Source: Oscillospiraceae bacterium | GTDB lineage: Bacteria > Bacillota > Clostridia > Oscillospirales > Ruminococcaceae | Assembly (NCBI GenBank): GCA_015067025.1 | Contig: SVNC01000003.1 | Location: forward strand, 1-64,000 | Direction: 5' to 3' | Length of the DNA stretch: 64,000 nucleotides | In this document: positions 10,626 through 32,365 of the stretch, piece by piece | Layout of the letters: every line of letters starts with the position of its first letter | How positions within the stretch are numbered: the first letter of the stretch is position 1 | The notes under the pieces: model-generated | Told to the model about the DNA's origin: nothing | The model's database searches: none | Seen by the model: the letters and a program-made list of their open reading frames with translations, nothing else | Translations under genes and position numbers: made by a program

Positions 10626-11702
10626 TTAATTTTCATTACTTGCCGCAAGCTTTGCCGCTCTGTCTGCGATTGCCAGTGCCTCGAACACTTCGTCGCAATC
10701 GCCGTTAAGCATTGCTTCAAGCTTATATAACGTTAGTCCTATTCTGTGGTCTGTGACACGGCTCTGAGGATAATTATAGGTTCTTATTCTTTCAGAACGG
10801 TCACCCGTACCTACCTGGATTTTTCTCTCTGCCGCGATCTTACTTGTCTGCTCGTTCAGTTTAGCTTCATAAAGCTTACTGTAAAGCATCTTCATAGCTT
10901 TGTCCTTGTTCTTGTGCTGGCTTCTTTCTTCCTGACATTCAACCACAACACCTGTGGGATGATGAATAATGCGGATAGCAGATTCCGTCTTGTTGATATG
11001 CTGACCACCTGCACCGCTCGAACGGAAGGTCTGAAACTCTAAATCAGCAGGATTTATTTCCACGTCCACCTCTTCAACTTCAGGAAGTACCGCTACCGTT
11101 ATGGTTGAAGTGTGAATTCGTCCCTGAGTTTCCGTTTCGGGTACTCTTTGTACTCTGTGTACGCCGCTTTCATATTTAAGCTTTGCATAAGCACCGTCAC
11201 CTTCAACAGAAAAGCTGATTTCCTTATATCCGCCAAGTTCTGTGGGGTTTGCGTTTATCACTTCCATCTTCCAACCCTTAAGCTGTGCGTACATGGTGTA
11301 CATTCTGTAAAGAGAGTTTGCAAAGAGTGCCGCTTCATCACCGCCTGCACCGCCTCGAATTTCAATAATTACGTTCTTGTCGTCGTCAGGATCTTTAGGT
11401 AAAAGCAGAATTTTAAGCTCTTCGGTATACTGTTCGATAAGAGCTTTATTTTCATCGTACTGTTGCTGTACCATTTCCTTGAAGTCCTTATCAAGTCCGC
11501 CCTCTGAAAGCATTGACTTTGCCTCTTCATAATCGTCATTTGCAGCCTTGTATTCTCTGTACTTATCAATTATGGGAGTAAGGTTTTTAAGCTCCTTCAT
11601 AAGATTTTTGTACTGCTCCTGATCATTTATAACGTTTATATCAGTAAGCTTTTCATTTATCTCATCAAATCGGATTTCCATTCCCTTTAATTTATCAATC
11701 AT
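10626..11702 (-). CDS. prfA: Peptide chain release factor 1
   Basis: RSSGAGGQHINKTESA; start chosen at MIDKLKGM with CAGGAGAAT RBS rather than 11747. Confidence 0.96.
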   Translation of the reverse strand: MIDKLKGMEIRFDEINEKLTDINVINDQEQYKNLMKELKNLTPIIDKYREYKAANDDYEEAKSMLSEGGLDKDFKEMVQQQYDENKALIEQYTEELKILLLPKDPDDDKNVIIEIRGGAGGDEAALFANSLYRMYTMYAQLKGWKMEVINANPTELGGYKEISFSVEGDGAYAKLKYESGVHRVQRVPETETQGRIHTSTITVAVLPEVEEVDVEINPADLEFQTFRSSGAGGQHINKTESAIRIIHHPTGVVVECQEERSQHKNKDKAMKMLYSKLYEAKLNEQTSKIAAERKIQVGTGDRSERIRTYNYPQSRVTDHRIGLTLYKLEAMLNGDCDEVFEALAIADRAAKLAASNEN

Positions 11703-11718: not shown

Positions 11719-11913
11719 TTACTCTTGTTCTGTTTCAGCTGAAACAACAGATTTTATTTTTTTCTCACACTTTGATCTGGGTGTCATAAATTCTCTGCCG
11801 CATCCCGTACATCTGAGCTTAAAATCCGCTCCTATACGAAGTACTAACATATCCTTTGAGCCGCAAGGGTGCTCCTTTTTCATCTTAAGGATATCTCCTA
11901 CCTTTATATCCAT
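11719..11913 (-). CDS. DUF951-like small protein
   Basis: 64 aa MDIKVGDILKMKKEHPCGSKDMLVLRIGADFKLRCTGCGREFMTPRSKCEK. Confidence 0.85.
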   Translation of the reverse strand: MDIKVGDILKMKKEHPCGSKDMLVLRIGADFKLRCTGCGREFMTPRSKCEKKIKSVVSAETEQE

Positions 11914-28535: not shown

Positions 28536-29345
28536 TTAAACTCCCATATATTTTTCAAGGAATTTAACCGACATATTTATCCACTGTTTGCAATTGTCGC
28601 GGTAGAAATAGTCGTTCCAGCCTGTGACCTTATCGCAGGTGGAAAGTCCGTGAGGGCCTTCGTCAAACATATGAAGCTCACAAGGAACTTTATTTGATAC
28701 ACAAGCCTTAGCCATAACAAGACTATTCTGGGCGGGTACGCAGTCATCGTTTGCGGTGCACCATAAGAATACGGGCGGTGTCTTGGGTGTTACTCTGTTT
28801 TCAATAGAGAGTTTTGAAAGCTCGTCTCTTGTGGCATCTTCACCGAGAAGCACGTCAAAAGAACCCTTATGGGGATTTGTAACGCCGCTTATTACGGGAT
28901 AGCTGAGTATAGCCGCATTGGGTCTTATATCCTCGGGAGTGCAGGATAAGGGTTTATATACCGCAGGATCTCCCCACATTGTAGCCATACAAGCCGCAAG
29001 GTGGCCGCCTGCACTTGCTCCCCATACTGCTATTTTCTGAGGGTCGATGCCGAATTCTTCGCATCTTTGTCTCAGCTTAAGTACTGCATACGCCGCATTG
29101 TGAAGCGCTGAGGGGTAACGTGTGTTACAACTGTAATTAAGGATAAAGGCATTGTAGCCCTCGGCAAGATAACGCATTGCTACAGGCTCACCCTCTCTTG
29201 CGGAGCAGTATTCGTAACCGCCACCGGGGAAAATAAGGATAGCAGGTCTTTTTTCGCAGAACTGAAGACCTTCTACGTTATCCAGCATATAAGCCTTTAA
29301 GTAGACGGTTCTTTCTTCATTTAAATAGTAGGTTTTTATCACCAT
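28536..29345 (-). CDS. Alpha/beta hydrolase (esterase/lipase, BD-FAE-like)
   Basis: ILIFPGGGYEYCSAREGE, VWGASAGGHLAA (GxSxG), DEGPHGLS. Confidence 0.88.
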   Translation of the reverse strand: MVIKTYYLNEERTVYLKAYMLDNVEGLQFCEKRPAILIFPGGGYEYCSAREGEPVAMRYLAEGYNAFILNYSCNTRYPSALHNAAYAVLKLRQRCEEFGIDPQKIAVWGASAGGHLAACMATMWGDPAVYKPLSCTPEDIRPNAAILSYPVISGVTNPHKGSFDVLLGEDATRDELSKLSIENRVTPKTPPVFLWCTANDDCVPAQNSLVMAKACVSNKVPCELHMFDEGPHGLSTCDKVTGWNDYFYRDNCKQWINMSVKFLEKYMGV

Positions 29346-29424: not shown

Positions 29425-29648
29425 GCGGTAGAACATAATTAAGGTAAATTGTTGTTTATAGGGTTGCCGTAGGCATTGTAGCCCCCAACCCCCTTACCCC
29501 CTTCCCCCTTAGGGAAGGGGGATAAATGAGGGGCTACCGCCCCTTGTGACCCTTTGGGGCTACCGCCCCAAACCCCGTGCATATCAAGGCTTGTGGGTTG
29601 TTTGCAAAATGAAATTACAACAACATTGTAGCACCGCCGTTTACGAGG

Positions 29649-29724
29649 CTGCGACGCCCTTTAGGGCAATAAACCACCGTTTATATCGGCGTTTACGGGC
29701 AATTTACCACCTTGTTTTAATTAT
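29649..29724 (+). repeat. 76-bp direct repeat, copy 1
   Basis: CTGCGACGCCCTTTAGGGCAATAAACCACCGTTTATATCGGCGTTTACGGGCAATTTACCACCTTGTTTTAATTAT. Confidence 0.95.
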
Positions 29725-29913
29725 CACCTTAATGTAGGGGGTGCCCCCCCGGACGCCCGCCGCCGAAGGGAGCAGTCCGATAGGACTGCGTGACTTTATG
29801 AAAATGCAATTTTCATAAAGTTTAGGCTACCGCCCATGTAGCAGTCTGAAAGACTGCGACGGTCTTTAGACCAATGACCCCTTTTGGGGCTACCGCCCCA
29901 GCAGTCCAAGGGA

Positions 29914-29989
29914 CTGCGACGCCCTTTAGGGCAATAAACCACCGTTTATATCGGCGTTTACGGGCAATTTACCACCTTGTTTTAATTAT
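29914..29989 (+). repeat. 76-bp direct repeat, copy 2 (identical)
   Basis: Exact copy of 29649-29724. Confidence 0.95.
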
Positions 29990-30556
29990 AATCATTTCCG
30001 TAGGGGCGTCTGTTTCGCAAGAAACAGACGAGGTCTTTAGACCAACGACTACTTAGACGCCCGAAATTATCGCATAAACAAAAACCGCCGTAGGCGGATT
30101 TATTAAAATTTATCCGCCGTAGGCGGATTCCATCATTAGCGAAGCGGCATCATATGCCCGACAGGGCATATATCATTCATCACGTCTGCGAAGCAGATAT
30201 ATCATTGTTGTTTGAACGCTTGGCGTTCAACAAGTTTCCCATTGTTTTTAAAATCAAAGATTTTAAAAACCGTCTCAGTCCCTTGGACTGCTCCCGCTCC
30301 CAATTCCGCCTTTACAAGCCATTGCAATTGGCAAAACATTATGAACGGCGGTGTTACAATGTTGTTGTAATTTTTTCAAATAACCCACAAGCCTTGATAT
30401 GCAAGGGGTTTGGGGCGTAGCCCCAAACAAGGTCGCAGGGGCGGTAGCCCCCGTATTTTCCCCCTTTCCTCAGGGGAAAGGGGGTCAGGGGGTTTGGGGC
30501 TACAATGCCTACGGCAACCCTATAAACAACAATTTATCTCTCCCCAAATACAAAAT

Positions 30557-30584
30557 AAAAGAGGAAGTCTGCACTTCCTCTTTT
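30557..30584 (-). terminator. Intrinsic terminator of the LytTR regulator gene
   Basis: AAAAGAGGAAGT-GCAG-ACTTCCTCTTTT on minus strand. Confidence 0.8.
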
Positions 30585-30604
30585 ATATATATAATAGTAT
30601 CCGG

Positions 30605-32365
30605 TTATATTGATAATCTTGACTTGAAATCCTCGACGTACTTTCTTGATACCTTTATTTCCTCGTTATTGCTGAGAGTCACGATAATGGTTCTGTCAGG
30701 ACCGGGTCGGAAATTGACTACCTTTTTCATATTAAGCACCATTGACTTTGATATACGTACAAAGCCTCTTGTATTAAGCTGCTCTTCAATTTCAAACAGC
30801 TTTTGCTTTATCTCGTACTTTCCGCTTTTCAGAGCAATATGTATCTTGCTGTTTATAGCTTCAAAATACAGTATATTTTCAACTACCACCTTACACATAA
30901 CGCCGTTTTTATTTGCAAAAATATTAATATCGTCATTTATCGGTGTAGGATTATTAATAACGGTGCTACTTTCTGCATTCTTTTCTGCAGAATATGACTG
31001 TAAAGCGGGCTGCTGCTGGGGGACCGCAGATTTTCTTGCTTCTTCAAGCTGATTTAAACGCTCAATAGCAATTGATACTATCTTGGCAAATTTAAGGGTT
31101 ATTTCATCGTATATTGCAGGGGTATCATACATAACAGTCATAAAGCCGTACATCTTACCATTGAATACAAGCGGCAGTACAAAAGTAAAGGAACTGTCAC
31201 CGCCAACGTCAATGGATATACCGTCCGGAAGAATACGACTTGCAACAAATTCCTTTTCAGGAGTCTTATCATATTGGTCTTCAACAAAGAAAACACAGGT
31301 TGCGTGCAGATTATCTTCATTGATCAGAGAAATGCTGACGCCTTTTCTTCCCGATATAAGATAAACGTTTTTTCTCATAATGTCAACGAACTCATCAAAA
31401 TTCTTTACCGTATAGAGCTTTTCTTCGATATTGCTGTTTCTGAAAAGCATTTCGTTATGCTCCTGCTTTTCTCTCTGTTCAAATTTAAAGCGTGTATTTC
31501 TCTGTGGCATTATACCACAGCCACAGCTTATACCAAGGGACAGTACCGGCTGAGGAGGTCTCTTTTCAGGAGCAGTCAGCCCTGTTATTTTATTATAAAG
31601 CATAGCCATAGCATCATATCCCGATATTTCACCATCAATAATAACTGTTGAAATAGAAAGTATGTTTCCAAGCTTTTCGGGAGATCTTGAAACGCACATT
31701 ACCTTGATATCATCGGGGATACGATAATTGTACTGATACATACATTTAATAAAGGTCCTTGCAATAGGCTCATTGATACATACAACTGCATCGGGTATAG
31801 GGAGTACTTCTCTTGCAATATTATCCGCTAATGTTTCTGCACAATCCGTCCAGTAGCCACCATAGAAAACGTCATTTTCATTAAAGCTAAGACCGTGCTT
31901 TTTCAATGAATCCTTTGCTCCGTTTATCTGAGCGTTGATAGTACTTTTTCTGCCACCGAGTACATATATATGCTGACAATTATGTTTTTCTATCAGATGG
32001 TCAAATATCAATTCCATATACTTTCCGCTTCCGCGGCTCTTTACGTGATCAACGTCCTCAAATTTACCTACAGATACAATAGGGATGTCACATTGTTCTT
32101 TTATCTTTGCAGATATATCCATAAGAACCTCGGTATGAGCACCAAAGCTGGTGGCAATAACTATAACACCGTCATACTCGTTGAAATTGACAAGGTCAAA
32201 TACTTTGTCCTCTCCTCCTGTAATAAGCTCGCAAAGCTGCAACATAGAAAAGGTTGTAGTTGAAAAGCCAAGTGTATTAGCTGACTTTTCAATCCCGAGA
32301 AGATAGGATATGGTATCATTTTCCCTTATGTCTGACATCAGTACACATATTTTGTATTTAAGCAT
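30605..32365 (-). CDS. LytTR-family regulator with N-terminal PBP1/LacI-type sensor-like domain and central GAF-like region
   Basis: N-term YKICVLMSDIRENDTISYLLGIEKSANTLGF...HIYVLGGRKSTINAQINGAKDSLKKHGL (periplasmic-binding-protein-like fold, no signal peptide); C-term FANKNGVMCKVVVENILYFEAINSKIHIALKSGKYEIKQKLFEIEEQLNTRGFVRISKSMVLNMKKV (LytTR). Confidence 0.85.
   Translation of the reverse strand: MLKYKICVLMSDIRENDTISYLLGIEKSANTLGFSTTTFSMLQLCELITGGEDKVFDLVNFNEYDGVIVIATSFGAHTEVLMDISAKIKEQCDIPIVSVGKFEDVDHVKSRGSGKYMELIFDHLIEKHNCQHIYVLGGRKSTINAQINGAKDSLKKHGLSFNENDVFYGGYWTDCAETLADNIAREVLPIPDAVVCINEPIARTFIKCMYQYNYRIPDDIKVMCVSRSPEKLGNILSISTVIIDGEISGYDAMAMLYNKITGLTAPEKRPPQPVLSLGISCGCGIMPQRNTRFKFEQREKQEHNEMLFRNSNIEEKLYTVKNFDEFVDIMRKNVYLISGRKGVSISLINEDNLHATCVFFVEDQYDKTPEKEFVASRILPDGISIDVGGDSSFTFVLPLVFNGKMYGFMTVMYDTPAIYDEITLKFAKIVSIAIERLNQLEEARKSAVPQQQPALQSYSAEKNAESSTVINNPTPINDDINIFANKNGVMCKVVVENILYFEAINSKIHIALKSGKYEIKQKLFEIEEQLNTRGFVRISKSMVLNMKKVVNFRPGPDRTIIVTLSNNEEIKVSRKYVEDFKSRLSI

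Follow-up and report, generated by a model that had tools for sequence, protein, structure and literature searches.

Within the 64-kb stretch of DNA analyzed here (the window), a long inverted repeat lies between two genes on the minus strand, one encoding an alpha/beta hydrolase (28536-29345) and the other a periplasmic-binding-like plus LytTR-domain protein (30605-32365). To its right lies the terminator of the LytTR-domain gene and to its left the start of the hydrolase gene. The first-pass annotation had described 41-bp perfect ends, imperfect arms of about 195 bp continuing inward and no protein inside, and each of these observations held on re-analysis. The two 41-bp ends are exact reverse complements of each other (Table 1), and the arms align at 88% identity over about 200 bp (29442-29641 against 30344-30539), with the inward inverted homology falling into three blocks (103, 46, and 30 bp, with 89%, 93%, and 97% identity, respectively). 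The internal open reading frames of 60, 63, and 88 amino acids have no Pfam match. No other 20-mer inverted matches up to 5 kb apart were found in the whole window, and the element contains 19 hairpins with a stem of at least 6, whereas 56 other window stretches of equal length average 3.3 and never exceed 8. The inverted repeat is therefore real and far beyond chance. Its best-supported termini lie slightly beyond those first proposed, at a 15-bp box, GGTAAATTGTTGTTT, and its inverted partner. As for the signals said to flank the element, the terminator on the right is real as sequence, whereas the left-hand promoter scores only a weak 9/12, and promoter-like matches in the region of the element are little above chance.

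Table 1. Parts of the window copy and the adjacent terminator
Feature	Position	Strand	Evidence or remark
Whole composite mosaic repeat	29443-30538	.	Longest of 17 box-bounded copies in the genome
Left end box GGTAAATTGTTGTTT (family consensus GATAAATTGTTGTTT)	29443-29457	+	Box count against reversed control
Right end box, exact consensus	30524-30538	-	Box search of the genome
Perfect 41-bp end, left: box, GCCGTAGGC hairpin, start of C-rich module	29445-29485	+	
Perfect 41-bp end, right copy	30496-30536	-	
Inner arm module (GCATATCAAGGCTTGTGGGTT ... TTACAACAACATTGTA ... CCGCCGTT)	29564-29641	+	Inverted partner 30344-30417; about 8-13 other loci
Inner arm module, right copy	30344-30417	-	Inverted homology
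89-nt direct repeat, copy 1	29636-29724	+	93% to copy 2
89-nt direct repeat, copy 2, reaching REP module	29901-29989	+	93% to copy 1
GGAG-tagged hairpin (GGGAGCAGTCCGATAGGACTGC)	29768-29789	+	Sequence, hairpin list
GTAG-tagged hairpin (GTAGCAGTCTGAAAGACTGC)	29838-29857	+	Sequence, hairpin list
GTAG REP module (GTAGGGGCGTCT ... AGACGCCC), loop expanded by two extra hairpins	30000-30062	+	
Internal truncated end box (ATTGTTGTTT), then GAACGC..GCGTTC hairpin; apparent left edge of second element	30203-30230	+	
Intrinsic terminator of LytTR-domain gene, outside the element	30555-30586	-	

The repeat belongs to a multicopy family with common ends and mosaic interiors

The first-pass annotation had made its mobile-element reading depend on the sequence not being single-copy. 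When the genome from which the window comes (2.41 Mb in 29 contigs) was searched, the element proved to be multicopy, with 135 partial matches over many contigs; pieces of it recur at about 35-40 places, mostly intergenic, and, allowing up to one mismatch, a 37-mer taken from the perfect end is found 14 times. The 15-bp end box, with the consensus GATAAATTGTTGTTT, has 60 copies in the genome at up to one mismatch, compared with 1 in the reversed control. Together, the recurring pieces and the 60 boxes support the reading as a non-autonomous mobile or repetitive element. Because none of 59 genomes of the same genus has more than 3 copies of the box, and none has it above chance level, the box family is species-limited as far as sampled. 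The sole part of the element shared with some congeners is a C-rich hairpin module (query 971-1064). One congener with a one-contig genome (G014, contig C1) carries copies of this module and seven near-identical full IS200-type Y1 transposase genes. Spread on phages was considered and rejected, as the 26-nt element end had no exact match in IMG/VR.

Seventeen clusters in the genome have a plus-strand box on the left and a minus-strand box on the right; they span 211 to 1096 bp, the window copy being the longest. Compared side by side, the same boxes enclose differing interiors, and alignments of the window copy to other loci start or stop recurrently at about 29571, 29643, 29763, 30011, 30203, and 30291, mostly at hairpins. 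Boxes also occur in tandem about 104 bp apart, and behind each of them come a palindrome, which differs from box to box, and a C(T/G)GCC...ACGGC stem. An intact single unit with 195-bp arms, as originally proposed, is thus ruled out: the members are mosaics with different interiors, and what they share is the 15-bp end box. All 16 elements that could be scored lie between open reading frames; the flanking genes are convergent or both on the minus strand in 13 cases and divergent in only one. A 45-bp inverted pair of end boxes around one palindrome (contig C13, 16345-16389; L128) is possibly the smallest family member. Contigs C6, C7, C9, C12, C13, C17, C18, C20, C21, C24, and C25 end inside repeats. 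Since the assembly breaks there, both the copy number and the longest copies are underestimated. Taken as a statement on the repeat family alone, the region is almost certainly a non-autonomous, non-coding mosaic repeat of a species-limited family of intergenic hairpins.

The window copy as an apparent composite of two oppositely oriented elements

The window copy contains a truncated end box, ATTGTTGTTT, at about 30203, followed by a GAACGC..GCGTTC hairpin; in other elements the same hairpin directly adjoins the terminal box. This point is also where eight alignments with other loci begin. Immediately to the left of 30203 lies the segment of the copy that other loci share least, a series of small hairpins that are unrelated to one another and joined by ATCAT-like linkers. 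Runs of short hairpins with unrelated stems and a conserved GTGATGT / ATCAT-like linker were observed both at 30130-30200 of the window and on contig C21 (20408-20850; L049, 5300-5850). On the simplest reading, the window copy would unite one element, spanning 29443 to roughly 30200, with a second in the opposite orientation at about 30203-30538. Two opposite elements that each bear the same end module would have perfect 41-bp ends as a consequence.

REP modules accompany the family, and the genome has one RAYT-like gene

Among the modules of the window copy is a hairpin of the GTAG REP design, GTAGGGGCG(A/T)CTNNNAG(T/A)CGCCC, and GTAG plus hairpin is the classical design of REPs (PMC8266576, PMC3733652). 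The short-loop form, GTAGGGGCGNCT..AGNCGCCC, occurs 23 times in the genome and 0 times in the reversed control, with about two thirds of the 23 copies in or beside mosaic elements; the REP in the window differs in that its loop is enlarged by two further hairpins. The genome thus holds what characterizes REPs, a short hairpin tagged with GTAG or GGAG in many copies. The covariation count for this REP was obtained from sequences chosen for perfect stems and is not independent proof. The whole unit is not a BIME of alternating REPs; it comprises one expanded REP, other tagged and untagged hairpins, and the end boxes.

The only Y1 / IS200-type transposase gene in the genome (contig C25, 11656-12387) has as its best match the NCBIfam family of REP-associated tyrosine transposases (RAYT), with an E-value of 3.8e-16 and 59 bits where the cut-off is 80. 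The family REP is found at 11530, on the 3' side of the gene, and twice within it, at 11840 and 12083, in frame and with the frame intact. The locus therefore has the make-up of a RAYT gene (HUH plus Tyr) beside its REPs, at a family score below the curated cut-off. End boxes, which are not REPs, do not flank the gene, the nearest being about 1.5 kb away. Among 60 genomes of the genus, the REP is present in several copies only in this genome (23) and in G004 (9), and both are among the approximately nine genomes with a RAYT-like gene; as it is based on two genomes, this correlation is suggestive only.

RAYT genes of Clostridia often carry paired REPs in frame

We scanned 80 RAYT loci (L210-L289) from named genomes, mostly of Clostridia, for GTAG hairpins. 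Inside the RAYT frame their density was 2.16 per kb; it fell to 0.90 per kb in the adjoining 400 bp and to 0.17 per kb farther off, and 50 of the 80 genes had at least one such hairpin inside. Counted regardless of a hairpin, GTAGGG occurred 3.4 times per kb in RAYT genes versus 0.39 elsewhere. In 36 genes a plus-strand REP typically lies 123 nt before the HUH codons and a minus-strand REP about 45 nt after them. The two REPs of a pair share their first 11 bases in 27 of these 36 genes, where 10,000 partner shuffles gave an expectation of 2.7 and a maximum of 10; the test is inflated by relatedness, but the matched pairs span at least 15 different stems. Across the Clostridia RAYT genes, including the one on contig C25 of this genome (11656-12387), paired in-gene REPs nearly always have the same stem, and the stems vary between genes.

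In the predicted structure of one of these proteins (L212; mean pLDDT 88.6), the residues encoded by the REPs map to two loops on the surface, at about 41-48 and 94-101, where confidence is lower. Relatives of the RAYT found here match the REP-bound E. coli enzyme (structure 4ER8) in sequence, with an E-value of 6.1e-13, and also in fold. We followed two REP types through 24 genomes: they were present in 8/8 genomes whose RAYT carries the type, with copies beyond the gene itself in five of the eight (up to 94 in total), and in 4/20 genomes without the type in their RAYT in each test. The genome of Ruminococcus sp. U_126731 (G093; L269) harbors GTAGGGGCGGATANNATCCGCCC 94 times, most copies being arranged in inverted pairs with a distance of about 47 bp; this population is REPIN-like and matches the REP inside that genome's RAYT gene.

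REPs within RAYT genes are not wholly new, as in-frame REPs have been reported for subclass 2.4 (RAYT group 4) (PMC6006769). The matched inverted pairing around the HUH codons in Clostridia was not found described in the literature surveyed, and a search for literature on such repeats in Ruminococcus or Clostridia returned nothing relevant. Speculatively, the Clostridia RAYT genes might serve as reference copies of their REP type, with both REPs of the in-frame pair around the HUH-coding segment renewed together whenever the type changes and hairpin modules copied out from there into box-bounded mosaics, an idea that we consider rather improbable.

How the family may have spread

We interpret the element as a BIME/MITE-like mosaic whose hairpin modules are probably moved by the RAYT of the genome. 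For the whole statement, a two-member composite of a mosaic hairpin family with modules mobilized by RAYT on single-stranded DNA, we estimate a probability of about one half. The enzyme would recognize GTAG plus hairpin on single-stranded DNA, with single-stranded GTAGGGGCGACTATCAGTCGCCC, the GTAG strand, as a candidate substrate; the E. coli enzyme handles GTAG hairpins on single-stranded DNA in vitro (PMC8266576). By cutting and pasting REP-bearing pieces, it may have caused hairpin modules to be inserted, duplicated, and shuffled, and recombination between copies may then have given rise to the long symmetric composite in the window. The RAYT step is proposed for the hairpin modules and not for the box-bounded unit as a whole. 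Counting against a role of RAYT are the match under the NCBIfam cut-off, the fact that the boxes are not REPs, the correlation based on two genomes and the fact that no copy was caught moving.

The ends of the elements bear on a different mode of transfer. The first-pass annotation had seen no convincing target-site duplication, and the flanks of the 17 elements likewise show none beyond a possible TA. If this two-base duplication were real, it would point to an enzyme other than RAYT. As only TA, seemingly part of the ends, could be duplicated, a TA-duplicating transposase is a serious rival. The elements could be a MITE family moved by a cut-and-paste transposase, for example of the TA-duplicating IS630/Tc1-type, acting on the GATAAATTGTTGTTT ends, with the REPs as later passengers. 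Such an origin would fit the clear terminal inverted repeats at both ends of the 17 elements, the TA at the matching place in both ends of nearly all of them, and some elements that are seemingly boxed yet lack an exact REP. However, conservation extends beyond the TA to its outer neighbors (G, then A or G), which makes the TA appear to belong to the end rather than to the target, and the exchange of modules in the interiors is far above the MITE norm. In the loci examined, there is also no such transposase, nor any large open reading frame as a candidate autonomous parent, between the boxes, although copies at contig ends are cut off and long ones may have been lost there. On balance, we regard this origin as possible and less probable than movement of the modules by RAYT. 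For the LytTR-domain gene next to the element, 60 relatives yielded no ortholog with more than 37% identity, and the named genome collection yielded none; for want of a close ortholog of this gene, no orthologous site was aligned and no empty site found.

An unlikely alternative is that the family spread mostly through events between palindromes, namely homologous recombination, gene conversion, and replication slippage, in which case transposition would not be ongoing and the boxes would be relics of an old element. The mosaic structure, the boxes in tandem at intervals of about 104 bp, whose units have diverged, and the absence of a target duplication all agree with such processes, but many boxes and modules are identical or nearly so at distant loci with unrelated flanks, which requires copying to new sites. 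Two further readings of the first-pass annotation, a nucleoid-protein site and a giant structured RNA, gained no specific support because the interior is not conserved as a unit, and the structured RNA was dropped as no Rfam family matched the window. That the region encodes a giant RNA with a 390-nt arm duplex and a function of its own is very improbable: its predicted fold is very stable with the arms paired (-613.6 kcal/mol, a value without a shuffle control at such length), but the long duplex is peculiar to the window copy, other members differ in ends and interiors, and the element sits after a terminator without a strong promoter of its own.

Relation to known repeat families

The family shares with REP/BIME repeats and their RAYTs (PMC3733652, PMC8266576, PMC6006769) the GTAG-tagged hairpins, the intergenic, mosaic, and clustered occurrence, the siting mostly between convergent or same-strand genes, and a single HUH/Y1 RAYT gene with the same REP, including in-frame REPs as in subclass 2.4. 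Unlike REP/BIME repeats, its members have a non-REP inverted box of 15 bp at their ends, are up to 1.1 kb long, and contain many non-REP hairpins. GTAG REPs have been listed for Proteobacteria, Cyanobacteria, Chloroflexi, and the PVC group, with Clostridia absent from the list (PMC3733652). TIRtrons and the TIR repeats of RAYT-like (TIRYT) genes are likewise inverted-repeat families linked to tyrosine transposases, and include degenerate REPs joined to unrelated stem-loops (PMC3733652). In TIRtrons, however, the TIRs flank the transposase gene, whereas the boxes described here do not flank the RAYT gene.

In its terminal inverted repeats and lack of coding capacity, the element also resembles a MITE, and bacterial MITEs such as RUP, NEMIS/Correia, and ERIC have terminal inverted repeats of about 15 bp and are non-coding, intergenic, and multicopy (PMC3733652). 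In contrast to them, the family has mosaic interiors and no duplication beyond TA. Bacterial MITEs are usually 70-300 bp long, with a conserved interior and a target duplication. The BOX elements of Streptococcus pneumoniae are modular hairpin repeats with a variable number of internal units; by this general description only, the family resembles them in its modular hairpins, and the BOX elements differ in size and modules.

The family is more than a peculiarity of a single locus and is of a known kind, REP/BIME- and MITE-like; what sets it apart is its size, its assembly from modules between end boxes, and its host group. It breaks assemblies of this species, and assemblers should expect it. 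Most knowledge of REP/RAYT systems comes from Proteobacteria and Cyanobacteria, and the way in which REPs spread has not been settled. A new set is provided by this genome together with some 80 additional RAYT loci, the majority of them clostridial: here the transposase gene carries its own REP type within its coding sequence, so that the pairing of REP and transposase is directly testable.
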